33,165 nucleotides of DNA from Candidatus Doudnabacteria bacterium RIFCSPHIGHO2_01_FULL_46_24 (GTDB lineage: Bacteria; Patescibacteriota; Doudnabacteria; UBA920; O2-02-FULL-48-8). A program made the position numbers and the translations under genes. The stretch is from positions 1 to 33,165 of the forward strand of contig MFEL01000009.1 in the NCBI GenBank assembly GCA_001777575.1, read 5' to 3'. Under the pieces are notes generated by a model. It was not told the DNA's origin. It did not search any database and was given only the letters and a program-made list of their open reading frames with translations. Below, piece by piece: positions 8,689 to 33,165 of this stretch (position 1 is its first letter; each line of letters opens with the position of its first letter).

Positions 8689-8723
8689 GGAGAGGTGGCC
8701 GAGCGGTTTAAGGCGCACGCTTG
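8689..8723 (+). pseudogene. tRNA-Ser 5' half, interrupted in the anticodon loop
   Basis: GGAGAGGTGGCCGAGCGG begins a perfect tRNA-Ser acceptor and D arm, then GCACGCTTG reaches anticodon position 34 and stops. A 37-nt perfect hairpin (8724-8760, arms TCCCGCC...GGCGGGA) follows, then GAAAGC, which would restore the loop TTGGAAA if the hairpin were removed. No matching 3' half with CCTCTCC is found. Confidence 0.6.
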
Positions 8724-8770
8724 TCCCGCCGACAATTTAATATTATTGTCGGTGGCGGGAGAAAGCTTAT

Positions 8771-8983
8771 ATGTATTATGTTTATATCTTGCAAAGTCAG
8801 AAAACAGCCAGGTATTATATAGGGTCTTGTGAAGATATTGAGGGTCGGATTGAAAGACACAATAATGGCAGAGTTCCCATTACAAGACCTGGTAGACCAT
8901 GGCACGTAGTTCACAAAGAATCATTTGATACGAGGTCAGAAGCAGTTAAAAGAGAGCGACAGATCAAAAGTTATAAGGGTTGA
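8771..8983 (+). CDS. GIY-YIG endonuclease domain protein, C-terminus cut by in-frame TGA
   Basis: A 70-residue single-domain GIY-YIG protein. YVYILQS and RYYIGSCED are the two GIY-YIG strands; R27 (in EGRIERHN) and the HNNGRV...TRPGRPW block match the UvrC/YhbQ-like family. The family normally ends KSYKGG-AFKKLI. Here the second Gly codon is TGA, and the frame continues beyond it with EAFKKLIKK to a TGA at 9011. It is therefore either truncated by one nonsense mutation or read through. A GGGAG Shine-Dalgarno lies in the upstream hairpin. It sits directly behind a broken tRNA-Ser half, suggesting a mobile insertion. Confidence 0.85.
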   Translation: MYYVYILQSQKTARYYIGSCEDIEGRIERHNNGRVPITRPGRPWHVVHKESFDTRSEAVKRERQIKSYKG

Positions 8984-9016: not shown

Positions 9017-9139
9017 AGGCAGGCCATTGGCTCTTGTGTTTGGAGGAGTCGCATAGAGGCCCAGTGCACACGCTTGGAAAGCGTGCATCCGCAAGGATTC
9101 GTGGGTTCGAATCCCACCTCCTCCGCCAATGGCCTGCCT
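9017..9139 (+). repeat. 14-bp inverted repeat clamping tRNA-Ser
   Basis: AGGCAGGCCATTGG (9017-9030) is the exact reverse complement of 9126-9139. The 3' arm includes the encoded CCA end of the tRNA, so the precursor would fold with leader and trailer paired. Confidence 0.8.
9042..9128 (+). tRNA. tRNA-Ser (GGA)
   Basis: Acceptor GGAGGAG pairs with CTCCTCC. The anticodon arm CACGC-TTGGAAA-GCGTG gives GGA. There is a long variable arm (ATCCGCAAGGAT), T arm GTGGG-TTCGAAT-CCCAC, discriminator G and encoded CCA. 87 nt. Confidence 0.95.
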
Positions 9140-19498: not shown

Positions 19499-19575
19499 AT
19501 TTGAAGTTATTTAACACAAAGCCTGCCACCAGGTATATGGAGCTTGCGCCCCAAACGTATGGGTTTCCCCACACG

Positions 19576-19624
19576 ACCAGCAAAGGATTCCTGATGACAG
19601 GTTGTCTGTCCTTTGCTGGTTTTT
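19576..19624 (+). terminator. Strong plus-strand terminator without an obvious upstream gene
   Basis: ACCAGCAAAGGA (19576-19587) pairs perfectly with 19609-19620, with an inner CCTG-ATGA-CAGG hairpin, followed by TTTTT. It may end a short RNA antisense to the start of the minus-strand cluster. Confidence 0.7.
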
Positions 19625-19775
19625 CGCCATGCCTGAAGGCTTGAATACCCTCAAGTTTAGGCCTATTAAATTGTGCTTATATATCTACAAGTACTCTACT
19701 ATTATACTACACATAGTCTATAACATAAACTATGATATAAACTATAAATATTCTAAGAAAAAACGGAAAAAACCA

Positions 19776-24221: not shown

Positions 24222-24332
24222 CTCCTAAAATTGCTTCTAGGGATGGACTATATCATGACCATTTAAGGTCCGAGGCGCTTCGACCTCGCCTGCGGCGGGG
24301 GCTACTCTCTTTCGAGATAGTCTCTACACCTT

Positions 24333-24363
24333 CCCAGCTCCAGTTTTCAAAACCGGGGCTGGG
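24333..24363 (-). repeat. Palindromic element family C in the tRNA-Asn intron, copy 1
   Basis: CCCAGCTCCAGTTTT and AAAACCGGGGCTGGG with a two-base loop. Confidence 0.85.
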
Positions 24364-24382
24364 CTTGGCTCGGGATTATCCC

Positions 24383-24410
24383 GCTCCACTTTTTTCAAAA
24401 GTGGGGCTGG
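24383..24410 (-). repeat. Palindromic element family C in the tRNA-Asn intron, copy 2
   Basis: GCTCCACTTTT and AAAAGTGGGGC arms. It runs into the 3' end of the HNH gene and supplies that gene's last codons and TGA stop. Confidence 0.8.
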
Positions 24411-24757
24411 ACTTCCCCGAATTCACCTCGTTTTTCAACCGAGCTTTCGCTCGGAAGCTGCGATATTCCTGCATGTAATTCTCTGTGGCAATTTGCGCAA
24501 ACTAATACGCATTTATCTAATTCGGCTTTGATCTTATTCCAGGATCTAGTAAGATCTCTTACAGAAATTGCGAAATCTTTTTTACTTGGATCCAGATGAT
24601 GAAAATCTAGAGCGCCTAGATATTTGTTATATCCACAGAGAACACATTTGCCGCCCTTATATTCCTTGGCCATTTCTCGAAGTTTTTGTCTTCGTTTAGT
24701 AACGGCCTTGATAATATAAGCGGCTCTATCGGAATAGGTTCTTTTGTCTTTTGGCAT
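24395..24757 (-). CDS. HNH homing endonuclease, intron-encoded
   Basis: 120 residues. The HNH beta-beta-alpha metal motif is seen as KCVLCGYNKYLGALDFHHLDP (C-x2-C, then HH) and CANCHRELH (second C-x2-C and His). A basic N-terminal helix (AVTKRRQKLREMAKEY) may contact DNA. It lies in the 5' half of the tRNA-Asn intron, consistent with homing. The C-terminal tail GEFGEVQPHF is encoded by a family C palindrome that provides the stop, so the native tail was probably changed. Start ATG 24757. Confidence 0.9.
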   Translation of the reverse strand: MPKDKRTYSDRAAYIIKAVTKRRQKLREMAKEYKGGKCVLCGYNKYLGALDFHHLDPSKKDFAISVRDLTRSWNKIKAELDKCVLVCANCHRELHAGISQLPSESSVEKRGEFGEVQPHF

Positions 24758-27010: not shown

Positions 27011-27235
27011 GCCCATCCCCGAGGCGAGGGTTCTTCTCTCCCAGACCATCCCCGAGGCGAGGGTTCTTCTCTCCCAGACCATCCCCGAGGCGAGGGTTCT
27101 TCTCTCCCAGACCATCCCCGAGGCGAGGGTTCGGAGAGTAATCGGGGATCTTGTAGAAGCCTATACTAAGATCCCCGCTCAGCTTGGCAAAACTCTCAGC
27201 GGGGATGGGAGAAAGGCGGGGATGGGAATAGGACA
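27011..27235 (+). repeat. 33-bp tandem repeat x4 and palindromic element family B
   Basis: Four units of 33 bp (CCATCCCCGAGGCGAGGG + TTCTTCTCTCCCAGA), the last one running into CGGAGAGTAATCGGGGATCTT, followed by AGATCCCCGCTCAGC...CTCTCAGCGGGGATGGG. The first 142 bp (27011-27152) are identical to 30640-30781 inside the surface protein gene. Confidence 0.92.
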
Positions 27236-27240
27236 AAGTT

Positions 27241-28878
27241 ATGATACAAATTTTCCCAAGAATTTTGCTCATTGACATGAATTCTTTTTTTGCCAGCGTC
27301 GAACAGCAGGCGAACCCGTTTTTGCGCGGCAAGCCGGTGGGGGTATGTGCCTCGCTGCATCAAACCAGCTGCCTGATTGCCGCTTCCAAAGAAGCCAAGG
27401 CTTTAGGGATCAAAACCGGAACTTTGGTTTATCAGGCCAAAAAAATCTGCCCGAAAATTATTTTATTGCCCTCTGAGCCGGAGAAGTACCGCGAAGTCAA
27501 CCGCCGGATCGTGAAAATTTTCCGCGATTATACGGATCGGCTGGAGGTGTATAGCATTGATGAAGCGTTTTTGGAAATTGACGAATTACGAATTAACGGA
27601 TTACGGATTAGCAATTCGTTAATTCGCAATCCGAAATCCGCCAATCCCATAATAATTGGTGCTGAGATTAAGCAGAGAATCAAGCAAGAAGTCGGAGAGT
27701 GGCTGACCTGCTCCGTGGGGCTGGCGCCCAACAAATTCATGGCCAAGCTGGCCGCGGATATGCAGCCCGCCTCCGCGCAAGGCTACGGCGGGTCCGCCGA
27801 AGCTTTATGCGAAGGCGGAAAGCCGGACGGACTTTCTATTATTTGGAGCCGGGAACAACTTCGGGAAGTTTATCAGGGCAAGCAATTGCGGGATTTGTGG
27901 GGAATAAATAGGGGATGGGAAAGGCGATTGGCTAAGATCGGGATCACAAGCCCGCTGCAGCTTTTAGATTATCCCGCGCAGAATTTGATCAGCTTGTTTG
28001 GCAAGCCGGGATATTATTTGTGGCAGAGAGTGAATGGGTATGAGGTTGATAAAATAAATCCTTGCGGTTATACGTTTAACGGCAGCGCCGCGCGTATCGG
28101 TAAACGTTTGGCGTCAAGCGTTAAGACCATCCCGCACTTGATGCGAGATCTTACGCAAGATCCCCGATTACAATACCTAACTCTCACCTCGGGGATGGGG
28201 CAAGAGACGCATAACGCCGTCGAACAAACGATACGCGCTGCGCCGACGAATAACGATCCCCCTAAATCTTTTGGCCATTCCTGGGTCCTCAACTTTCGTA
28301 CCACTGACAAAGAGCGGCTTAAGCCGGTGATCCTGCGCTTGGCCGAGAAAGCCGCGCGGAGGATGCGCAAGGAGGGTTTTCAGGCTTACGGTTTTTATAT
28401 ATTTATCCGCATGGTGGATGGAAGTTTTATTGCCAAATCAAAAAAGCTGAAGTTTGCGATTAATACAGGGCTGGAGCTTTACGAACAGGCAATGTTGCTT
28501 TTGGATTCCGAACTATGCCACAGGCTATTGTCCACCATCCCCGCTGAGAATTCTTACAAGTTGAGCGGGGATCTTAGTAGAGGCTTTGGTAAGATCCCCG
28601 ATTATTTAGCTAACCCTCGCCTCGGGGATGGGAATGGATTTCCCGCCCCCGTCATGCATATCGCGGTGGGGTTTAGGGATTTAGTGAAGTATTCAGAACA
28701 GTTAGAACTCAATTTCGGATTAACGGATTACGGATTAAATCCGCAATCCGCAATCCGTAATAAATTAATAGATCAATTAGATGCCATTAATGACAAATAC
28801 GGGGAATTCACGGTTCGTTCAGGCTTACTCACGCGGACGTCCGATTTCGCCCCGGACGCGATAGCCTTCGGAAAGTAG
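27241..28878 (+). CDS. dinB: DNA polymerase IV (Y family) with five in-frame palindromic insertions
   Basis: 545 residues, against about 350-400 for the family. Translesion polymerase that copies past damaged bases. The catalytic palm is intact: ILLIDMNSFFASVEQ (first Asp), YSIDEAFLEID (Asp-Glu pair), CSVGLAPNKFMAKLAADMQ. The little-finger core is seen in NDPPKSFGHSW and beyond. Excess length comes from inserts that each fall in a family loop: about residues 115-138 (family D), 177-196 between LAADMQ and KPDGL (family A), 275-336 before NDPPKSFGHSW (family B within a larger stem), 432-468 (family B) and 493-511 (family D). All keep the frame. Whether the protein works is untested, but catalytic motifs lie outside the inserts. 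Confidence 0.92.
   Translation: MIQIFPRILLIDMNSFFASVEQQANPFLRGKPVGVCASLHQTSCLIAASKEAKALGIKTGTLVYQAKKICPKIILLPSEPEKYREVNRRIVKIFRDYTDRLEVYSIDEAFLEIDELRINGLRISNSLIRNPKSANPIIIGAEIKQRIKQEVGEWLTCSVGLAPNKFMAKLAADMQPASAQGYGGSAEALCEGGKPDGLSIIWSREQLREVYQGKQLRDLWGINRGWERRLAKIGITSPLQLLDYPAQNLISLFGKPGYYLWQRVNGYEVDKINPCGYTFNGSAARIGKRLASSVKTIPHLMRDLTQDPRLQYLTLTSGMGQETHNAVEQTIRAAPTNNDPPKSFGHSWVLNFRTTDKERLKPVILRLAEKAARRMRKEGFQAYGFYIFIRMVDGSFIAKSKKLKFAINTGLELYEQAMLLLDSELCHRLLSTIPAENSYKLSGDLSRGFGKIPDYLANPRLGDGNGFPAPVMHIAVGFRDLVKYSEQLELNFGLTDYGLNPQSAIRNKLIDQLDAINDKYGEFTVRSGLLTRTSDFAPDAIAFGK
27584..27656 (+). repeat. In-frame palindromic element family D in dinB
   Basis: GAATTACGAATTAACGG...CGTTAATTCGCAATCC inverted repeat encoding LRINGLRISNSLIRNPKSANP after the catalytic SIDEAF block. 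Confidence 0.8.
27768..27832 (+). repeat. In-frame palindromic element family A in dinB
   Basis: CCGCCTCCGCGCAAGGC..., GTCCGCCGAAGC and TGCGAAGGCGG units encode PASAQGYGGSAEALCEGG exactly between ADMQ and KPDGL, which are adjacent in ordinary DinB proteins. Confidence 0.85.
28063..28248 (+). repeat. In-frame composite palindrome with family B core in dinB
   Basis: Outer arms GCCGCGCGTATCG and CGATACGCGCTGC enclose a family B unit (CCATCCCGCACTTGATGCG, GATCCCCGATT...CCTCGGGGATGG). Encodes about 60 residues before NDPPKSF. Confidence 0.8.
28531..28645 (+). repeat. In-frame palindromic element family B in dinB
   Basis: CCATCCCCGCTGAGAATTC...GAGCGGGGATCTT, then AAGATCCCCGA...CCTCGCCTCGGGGATGG. 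Two nested inverted repeats encode a Pro/Asp/Gly-rich block. Confidence 0.85.
28718..28775 (+). repeat. In-frame palindromic element family D in dinB, copy 2
   Basis: ATTTCGGATTAACGGATTACGG...CCGCAATCCGTAATAAATTAAT-type inverted repeat encoding FGLTDYGLNPQSAIRNKL. Confidence 0.75.
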
Positions 28879-28892
28879 CAAAGCGAACGAGT

Positions 28893-28936
28893 GCCCATCC
28901 CCGAGATGAGTATCAGGACAAGAAATCGGGGATCTA
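28893..28936 (+). repeat. Palindromic element family B after dinB
   Basis: CCCATCCCCGAGATGAGT...AATCGGGGATCT, a short unit of the same family. Confidence 0.75.
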
Positions 28937-30009: not shown

Positions 30010-33000
30010 TTGGACGACAAAGACTCGTCAAAATTAGGATCCGAGAGTAACCCTAATTTGGAAAATAGTGGCGTTTTTAACTCGTCTGCCGAAGCCTGGC
30101 AGGCGAAGGCAGATGACGCTGCTTTTTTGTCCCTGGCCCAGGCCTCGGTCCTTACCGGTTACCACCAGGACTATCTGGGCTTCCTGGCCCGCGCGGGCAA
30201 GCTTGAGGCGCACAAAATCGGGCGCAATTGGGTGACGACCAAGGCGGCTATTGAGAAATTGGTTGCCACGGGTAATGGCAAAACCGAGGTCATGGACGAA
30301 ACTGGCCGTAAAATTCCGGTGCACGTGGTCAGGGGAGAGCCGCAAGAGGCAGGGCAGAATGTCCAGGAGGAAATCATCCAGTACACTACTCCCTGGAACA
30401 ATAAGCTTTTGGATTCGCAGTCTGTTGACATGCTTTCCCATGAGAAGAAGAATACTCTGAGCCTGCTGAACCGGTTTTGGAAAAAAAGCGTTAGGGTTCT
30501 TCCCCCAACCCCCCCAACCTCCCTTACATCTCTGACTTCCTTCGAGGGATCAGAGCAACTCAAAAAAGAGCTTCTCGAAAAATTTGACCAGCTGGACTCC
30601 AAGCTGGAAAAGCTTACAAGCAACCACGCCGTTTCCTCGGCCCATCCCCGAGGCGAGGGTTCTTCTCTCCCAGACCATCCCCGAGGCGAGGGTTCTTCTC
30701 TCCCAGACCATCCCCGAGGCGAGGGTTCTTCTCTCCCAGACCATCCCCGAGGCGAGGGTTCGGAGAGTAATCGGGGATCTTACCAGAGCCTTAACCAGGA
30801 TCCCCTCGCCTCGCTCGACGCGAGTCGAAGCGGGCGCTCAACTCAGGGAATTCTCAGCGGGGATGGGACAAAAGCGGGGGAGTTGTCTGGTCAGGCAATA
30901 GAAAAACTCGAATCCAAGCTTGCGGATTTGGATACCAAAGTTTCCACTATTGCTAGCCAGCAACCAAAAGCTCCCACAGAGGCACAACTTAACCGGAAAC
31001 TTTCCGACTACGAGCCGGAAATTTTGGGCCTGCTCAACGCCAAGGAAATTACCTCTCATCTCAAGCAAGCCTCATCTTCTTCGGCGATCCGAGCGTTTTC
31101 TCCCTCAGCGGCGGCCATCATGATTTTGGCCTTTGGCGTTGCCGCGGCCGGGGGATTGATTTACACGACCTCCAGCCAGCTTTCGGAAATCGGAAGCAGC
31201 CTTTCCTCGCCTCAGTATTTGGTGTTGAACCGCACGGCGTATGCGCCATTAAGTGACCTGGTCCCAGTTTCCCTAACACCCTCCACCTCCCTTACCTCCC
31301 CAACTTCCCTGACTGGCCCGAGGGGCTTAGCCGGCCCCAGGGGAGAAAAAGGCGACAAAGGGGATCCCGGCCTGCCAGGCCCGACTGGCCCTGCAGGTCC
31401 CGTTGGCCCTTCCGGGCTCGCGGGCGGGGGCAGTAGTATCACCAATGTCACGTATGTCATGCCCACGGCCAACAACGGCGGGGGCGGCAGCATTGCGGGC
31501 GCCACTTACCTTTCTTCTAAAGAGCTGTCCACGGAAAAACTTTTTGTCACATCTGACTTGCAAAGCAGCGGCACAGCCACGATTGCCGCGGCCACCATCA
31601 CCGGCAACCAGACTTTAGGCGGTGATTTGACAGTTAACGGCAATACCACCATCGGCAGCAATGCTTCCGATACCATCACCTTTACCGGAAGAGTGGCTTC
31701 CTCCATCCTCCCAGCCACCGATGACACCTATGATTTAGGCTCTACTGCCTTAAGGTTCCGCGACCTCTACATCGGCCCGGGAAGCATCAACGTCATTTGC
31801 GACTCTTCCGAGTGTTCCTCAGCCACGACTTACAAGCTCTCGGTAGACCCTGCCACCAACAACCTGCGCATCTGGGACGGGACCACGACCTTCTTTACCC
31901 TGGACACTACTGGCGATACCATAGCCCGGGGCCAGCTGCAAGCCACAGAAGTCCCCGCCACGGCCCACGTCTTTACCACCTGGCCCACAGGAACCTCCGG
32001 TGTTTCTTCCTCCACCCTTTACATCAACCCCGCCTCTGCCGCGGCTGACACCAACCTCATCGGCGCTGCTGTCAATGGCTCAGTCAAGTTCCTGGTGGAT
32101 GCCGAAGGGGATGTCTATGCCAACAACTTAATCCTTTCCGGCTCCGCCACCACCGGCGCCACGACCATAGCAGGGAACTTAACTGTCCAGGACAATGTCA
32201 CCCTGGGGGATGCTTCTTCTGACACCATCACTTTCACCGGCACCATACTCGGAGCTTCGCCTCTGGTCTTTGAAGGAGGAACAGCCAATGACTTTGAGAC
32301 GACCTTCACTATCACTGACCCCACCACAGACAAAACCATTACTTTCCCCAACACCACCGGCACTGTAACTTTGACGACTAACGATCTATCAGTCTTCTCT
32401 GCCACCACTTCGGCCCAGTTAGCCGGAGTCTTAAGCGATGAAACCGGATCAGGCTTGGCAGTCTTCTCCACCAGCCCGACCCTGGTAACCCCAACCCTCG
32501 GCGTAGCCACTGCCACCAGTATTAACAAAGTTGCTCTCACCGCTCCAGCCACTTCCGCCACCTTGACTATTGCCGACGGCAAGACACTGACCGTTTCTGA
32601 CTCCACCACGCTTGGAACCAACGCCATCACCTTAGCCGGCGGGGAAGTCATCACTTTCTCGGCCACCAACGCCTTATCACTTCTGACCACTGGCTCAACC
32701 TCTGTCACCCTGCCAACTTCCGGCACTCTCTATGGCACAGCCACGGATTCCATCACCTCGCTTCAGCTTCTGACTTCCCTGTCCAATGAAACCGGCACCG
32801 GCGCCCTGGTGTTTGCCGCTTCACCAACTTTGGTTACACCTGCACTTGGCACTCCAAGCTCGGGAGTGCTAACCAATGCCACTGGTCTTCCACTCACCAC
32901 CGGCGTAACCGGCGTCCTGCCTGTGGCCAACGGCGGCACGAATTGTTCAAGCGCCAGCATTACTTGCTTTAACAACATCACGGGCTTTACCGCGGCGGGC

Positions 33001-33165
33001 ACCACCGGCACAACATCTACTAATTTAGTTTTCTCCACTTCGCCTACCTTTATTACCCCAGTCCTGGGCGCCGCCACTGGCACCTCTCTCGCCACCTCAG
33101 CCCAGAACATCTTTACCCACACGGCCGGCTCTGTGCCACTCATTCTGCGTTCTGCCACAGCCACG
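30010..33165 (+). CDS. Giant surface protein: HTH, TM, collagen-like and tail-fibre repeats (partial, 3' end outside window)
   Basis: 1052 residues are visible and the frame is still open at the window end. Start TTG 30010 follows a stop at 29992 with GAGAG upstream. Order: MerR/excisionase-like HTH (residues about 38-82, [17 protein letters not shown]...[15 protein letters not shown]); helical region; Pro/Thr stretch; palindrome-encoded [11 protein letters not shown] repeats (about 212-257); coiled parts; one TM helix (about 366-385, [19 protein letters not shown]); collagen-like Gly-X-Y ([17 protein letters not shown], about 436-470); then Thr/Ala/Ser-rich repeats with [13 protein letters not shown] and [19 protein letters not shown]...[10 protein letters not shown], a motif of phage tail fibres and bacterial adhesins. 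Inference: cytoplasmic HTH, outward-facing adhesive stalk. Confidence 0.9.
30085..30117 (+). repeat. In-frame palindromic element family A in the surface protein gene
   Basis: TCTGCCGAAGCCTGGCAGGC followed by GAAGGCAGATG: an inverted repeat encoding [11 protein letters not shown] just before the HTH domain. Confidence 0.65.
30640..30865 (+). repeat. In-frame tandem repeat and family B element in the surface protein gene
   Basis: The first 142 bp (30640-30781) are identical to 27011-27152: four 33-bp units, each 11 codons, read as [11 protein letters not shown]. The element ends with CTCAGCGGGGATGGG near 30862. A further TCGACGCGAGTCGA palindrome lies at about 30817-30830. Confidence 0.92.

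Follow-up and report, generated by a model that had tools for sequence, protein, structure and literature searches.

A dispersed palindromic element with a GIY-YIG nuclease-bearing form in a Patescibacteria genome

CGTC-tagged REPs, which include dRS3 of Neisseria and RPE-4 and RPE-6 of Rickettsia, are short palindromes found in several bacterial phyla (Di Nocera et al. 2013, PMC3733652). They are recognised by a CGTC (or TGTC/CCTC) tag, an 8–9 bp stem, a 4–5 nt loop and a CCA tail. Their stems begin with AT, and they occur in many copies, mainly as dimers. Some copies lie within genes, notably DNA repair genes and even essential genes, yet the 2013 survey reported them without a dedicated transposase (PMC3733652). 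Our search of open-licence papers found none tying REPs to GIY-YIG nucleases.

Here we describe a palindromic repeat family from a Patescibacteria genome of 847 kb in 18 contigs. The window analysed is a stretch of 33,165 nucleotides from this genome. An earlier note on it had reported a 142-bp block, built on a 33-bp tandem repeat, that is identical in an intergenic region and in a coding gene. That description is borne out: 27011–27152 and 30640–30781 match exactly over 142 bp, with the first mismatch bounding the match on both sides. Both sites hold 3.6 copies of the unit CCATCCCCGAGGCGAGGGTTCTTCTCTCCCAGA at 100% match (27013–27132 and 30642–30761; TRF). The unit consists of the left arm CCATCCCCGAGGCGAGGGTT followed by the pyrimidine-rich CTTCTCTCCCAGA. 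A match of this length is far too long to be due to chance. The features around the two blocks are as follows.

27011–27152, plus strand: copy 1 of the identical block, in an intergenic region, made up of three 33-bp left-end units and one complete left palindrome X
27112–27152, plus strand: module X, the left palindrome of element 1, CCATCCCCG..CGGGGATCTT
27168–27208, minus strand: right palindrome module Y of element 1, tail to tail with X across a 15-nt spacer
27241–28878, plus strand: dinB (DNA polymerase IV, IMS family; Pfam IMS, IMS_C), with two in-frame element insertions
28130–28198, minus strand: X module joined to another right half, inserted in frame within dinB
28535–28631, minus strand: complete X-Y element inserted in frame within dinB, where it is translated as STIPAENSYKLSGDLSRGFGKIPDYLANPRLGDG
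28895–28936, plus strand: single X module just 3' of dinB
30010–33165, plus strand: ORF for a large HTH / membrane / collagen-like surface protein (Pfam), open at the contig end
30640–30781, plus strand: identical block, copy 2, inside this ORF; the peptide is an 11-aa unit three times followed by HPRGEGS
30741–30781, plus strand: left palindrome module X of element 2
30782–30874, plus strand: spacer of element 2 and its right half Y, including 30 bp in frame in excess of element 1

Copy 1 begins 6 bp past the stop codon of an 81-aa ORF and lies ahead of dinB. Copy 2 falls within a frame that begins at 30010, is at least 1052 aa long and is still open where the contig ends; the 33-bp period is in frame there, as the earlier note had also claimed. 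Beyond the block the two sites are diverged but still homologous (27153–27215 and 30782–30874), so that only the left half of each element falls in the block. The block stops on the right where module X ends, in keeping with the mosaic habit of the halves elsewhere in the genome, where X also occurs next to different right halves and Y next to different left halves. Among 561 comparisons of palindrome modules in the genome, only the pair in the 142-bp blocks is 100% identical; the next reaches 95% and the median is 79%. Because the right halves are diverged and differ by 30 bp in length, only the left halves appear to have been recently copied or homogenised. A recent duplication or gene conversion, proposed in the earlier note, thus fits the identity but applies to the left half alone, which seems to have been copied or converted between two older, diverged elements.

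The element has the plan CC[ATCCCCG..CGGGGAT]CTT - spacer - AAG[ATCCCCG..CGGGGAT]GG, in which the palindromic modules X and Y stand tail to tail. The wider search for copies that the earlier note had called for gave 31 BLAST hits and 41 sites with the X/Y core pattern (none with the same pattern reversed), and 26 element loci were located, two of them in dinB between the paired blocks. This census combines searches with retrieved stretches of the genome and may miss degraded copies. A simple two-copy tandem repeat was rejected in view of the number of loci: the element is dispersed, and the block forms its left end. Single strands of element DNA fold better than shuffled sequences (z -3.0 and -4.9). 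Duplications of the left end by 33–34 bp also occur in two further copies, C6:32872-32914, which bears a nuclease gene, and C14:20624-20664, in rsmA. Iteration in steps of 33–34 bp is thus a recurrent habit of the element and not a peculiarity of the window.

Several copies lie in frame within genes. Besides the two in dinB, we identified in-frame copies in atpG, rsmA, tgt, recF, recJ and a reverse transcriptase gene, and the insertions use several reading frames and both strands. The 44-aa insert that the 28535–28631 copy adds to DinB is missing in all 19 aligned homologues. When the products of atpG, rsmA and tgt are aligned to solved homologues, the match continues on both sides of the element and the element itself is skipped as a gap. 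A genome of 0.85 Mb thus tolerates about 30–45 aa of translated repeat DNA in ATP synthase gamma, RsmA, Tgt, RecF, RecJ and DinB. Open-frame counts of single elements compared with base shuffles show no clear excess. Other insertions were seen in the same genes. In dinB, members of a second repeat family (GGATTACGGATTA.. / CGAATTACG..) are likewise inserted in frame, at 27576–27650 and 28725–28765, and its insert near the C terminus is common to the dinB of a relative (L046). The dinB of a relative from another family (L059, G021:C61) carries a different in-frame palindrome, translated CHPGLDPGS.., from a CATCCCGGACTTGATCCGGGATC repeat, so that dinB repeatedly accepts such insertions. In addition to the element at G000:C14:20623-20693, the product of rsmA has another insert, at about aa 90–118, that is absent from solved homologues.

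The window contains several further features. Its first 3000 nucleotides hold the 3' part of a 23S rRNA gene interrupted by a group I intron (247–501) and probably by more: repeats resembling intron ends occur at 468/1329 and 2058/2937, and an ORF for a LAGLIDADG endonuclease lies at 2366–2845. A minus-strand group I intron (24224–24757, Rfam) overlaps an ORF with a weak match to HNH endonucleases. A small GIY-YIG ORF (8771–8977), without palindromes of the X/Y type, lies between an apparent 5' tRNA fragment (8689–8725) and an intact tRNA gene (9042–9125), as if inserted at the tRNA gene. A LOOT RNA (RF03000, 74.5 bits) is found on the minus strand at 19538–19663.

Only one copy of the element in this genome contains an intact gene between X and Y. 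This 95-aa ORF (C6:32553-32837) matches the GIY-YIG family PF01541 with 60.4 bits against a cut-off of 22.6 (Pfam), and the palindrome tails abut its start and stop codons (..CGGGGATCTTGCT|ATG .. TAA|TGACTTAGCAAGATCCCCG..). Residues Y6, Y17, R27, H31, E64 and N83, the predicted catalytic residues of a GIY-YIG enzyme, are each conserved in at least 104 of 105 homologues. At a second locus, C8:25804-25989, X and Y enclose only the start and the last 27 codons of the nuclease gene. Given the intact gene at one locus and only the gene ends at the other, the short copies look like deletion derivatives. The X-gene-Y arrangement is found again in a second genus (G006), with a protein 86% identical to the C6 nuclease. 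Judged by eye from flank similarity, it apparently occupies the same chromosomal place, and the two copies are therefore not independent. Such flanking palindromes are absent around the genome's five further small GIY-YIG genes and around a gene fragment on C7. The C6 gene is not carried by an intron or intein, as it is bounded directly by palindromes and the in-gene copies keep the frame open; an Rfam search of the element copies in the window found no intron. Phage records gave no match to the nuclease.

A scan of a genome collection yielded 548 confirmed relatives of the nuclease, of which 80 were kept, from many phyla. Among the nuclease-relative loci with enough flank, 52 out of 106 have a CATYCCNG..CNGGRAT palindrome no more than 200 bp away on each side, compared with 21 of 2155 single control windows (1%) from the same loci. 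These palindromes mostly point the tag outward, and those in other phyla fit the CGTC/TGTC..CCA form. Facing inverted repeats with a score of at least 14 were found at 63% of the nuclease-relative loci and at 0.7% of control positions, which were taken from the same loci, with motif counts made besides. A cross-locus control, pairing the upstream side of one locus with the downstream side of another, was biased because loci share palindromes, and was replaced. Across 117 related genomes the palindrome count correlates with the nuclease count (rho 0.65, with ancestry not fully corrected). The partial rho is 0.63, or 0.60 given Y1 transposase count and genome size, and the correlation is present within family, order and phylum strata.

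Sites that differ between strains connect the gene to the palindromes. In Azospirillum lipoferum 4B the gap between sufB and sufC contains a palindrome dimer, the nuclease gene and a second palindrome dimer; in A. ramasamyi, A. oryzae, B510 and A. thermophilum the gap is only about 55–130 bp. At a site that spans about 835 bp in Sinorhizobium C101, S. meliloti Ak57, whose flanks are 95% identical, has about 33 bp, and these include a small palindrome. In Planktothrix No.66 the gene lies within a palindrome array, and PCC7805 and NIES-204 have palindromes without the gene. These differences indicate that the nuclease gene has been gained or lost at palindromic sites. Comparison of occupied and empty sites in Azospirillum and Sinorhizobium revealed no clean target-site duplication. 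On plasmid p1 of Planktothrix agardhii No.66, a nuclease-palindrome element has an MmeI-like restriction gene on one side and a DISARM helicase gene on the other.

On balance, we lean towards reading the block as the left end, several times repeated, of a palindromic mobile element whose full form is X-GIY-YIG gene-Y, with the nuclease moving the palindromes by cutting and copy-in repair. The full-length element is presumably autonomous, and the short X-Y forms without the gene, which make up most copies including those of the window, would be non-autonomous derivatives by internal deletion. The nuclease would recognise the palindromes, or sites resembling them, and cut; repair on a template bearing the element would then copy it into the cut site, as happens with homing endonucleases. 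Copies within genes would survive only where their length and frame leave the protein open. Cutting and repair at the palindromes could further account for the mosaic exchange of halves, for left ends that grow by 33 bp at a time and for left halves in the window that were recently homogenised. We infer that the nuclease moves the palindromes and caused the 142-bp identity, while ordinary RecA recombination could also produce both the left/right mosaicism and the homogenisation. More tentatively, and short of what we would call probable, the nuclease loci of many phyla may form a class of mobile elements not recognised before, in which a small GIY-YIG nuclease lies between paired palindromes and spreads them by cutting palindromic or empty sites followed by copy-in repair. 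Its gene-less derivatives would then be CGTC-type REPs, dRS3-like and RPE-like repeats, and the family in the window.

Alternatively, the palindromes could be relics without a mobiliser that are kept by gene conversion, the nuclease gene being a separate parasite that homes into pre-existing sites. The palindromes that Sinorhizobium Ak57 and Planktothrix PCC7805 keep at the site without the gene favour this explanation, as do genomes with palindromes and no detected nuclease (7 of the 56 genomes without a detected relative have at least 5 palindromes). However, short X-Y copies occur in at least four genera, the in-gene insertions are missing from close relatives, and the gene remnant at C8 indicates that gene-bearing elements give rise to short copies. 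We consider relic palindromes unlikely.

It is about as unlikely that the 142-bp identity is an assembly artefact, in which a short-read assembler collapsed similar left ends and wrote one sequence twice with an equal number of units. In favour of this, the length of the block is close to that of a short read, the assembly consists of 18 contigs, and every other module pair is at most 95% identical. However, each copy is joined to different flanks and a different right half, left-end duplications of 33–34 bp are found in two other copies, and the frame through copy 2 is open.

An explanation that we regard as distinctly improbable is that the palindromes are ordinary REP/BIME repeats moved by a RAYT/Y1 (IS200-like) transposase, with the nuclease gene as a passenger landing in them. 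The architecture does resemble REP dimers and BIMEs, this genome has two Y1_Tnp genes, and Y1 transposases have been proposed to mobilise GTAG-REPs (PMC3733652). However, the palindrome flanks both sides at none of the 22 analysable Y1 transposase loci, its partial correlation with Y1 count is 0.02 (-0.01 with genome size also controlled), and the 2013 survey found no CGTC-REP beside a Y1 gene (PMC3733652). We rejected a Y1/RAYT mobiliser on the flanks and the correlation. We likewise rejected, as very improbable, an adaptive tandem repeat of the surface protein (a collagen-like or linker region) later copied outward: 33 bp keeps the frame and a collagen-like stretch lies elsewhere in the host ORF, but the peptide is the translated left end of the element, found also in rsmA, dinB, recF and non-coding places, and is not collagen-like.

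Since a candidate GIY-YIG enzyme lies between such palindromes in many phyla, the question of what mobilises CGTC-REP-type repeats becomes directly testable, and the nuclease preferred here may be the agent that makes them spread.

Several known systems share parts of this plan. Like the homing endonuclease genes of the GIY-YIG type, the gene encodes a small single-domain enzyme with conserved Tyr/Tyr/Arg/His/Glu/Asn residues, is patchy across phyla and has occupied and empty sites; however, it is bounded by palindromic repeats and does not lie in an intron or intein. In MITEs, too, short copies that are non-autonomous have inverted-repeat ends and a full-length relative that bears a gene (here C6 full, C8 deleted); the window family, however, has no DDE transposase, and the sites compared showed no clean target-site duplication. 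REP/BIME repeats with RAYT genes (REPtrons) and REPINs likewise have paired palindromes around the gene of a DNA-cutting enzyme, many gene-less copies and mosaic dimers, but the enzyme here is a GIY-YIG nuclease and not a Y1 HUH tyrosine transposase, and there is no GTAG tag. The Rickettsia palindromic elements (RPE) resemble the family by plan, as dispersed palindromes in frame in open genes of a reduced genome; the window family differs in inserting in several frames and on both strands and in having a nuclease-bearing form. With the CGTC-REPs it shares the dimer plan, X and Y being opposite units across a short spacer, a stem (ATCCCCG) that begins with AT, and a multicopy distribution partly in genes, including repair genes. 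However, its modules open with CC or CCC before ATCCCCG and lack the CGTC tag, the stem is 7 bp, the loop about 22 nt and the tail CTT, and the present analysis describes a full-length form that includes a GIY-YIG gene. As tag, tail and loop all differ, we do not file the family as a CGTC-REP. It is nevertheless of the same plan as the CGTC-REPs, which are the closest described repeats.
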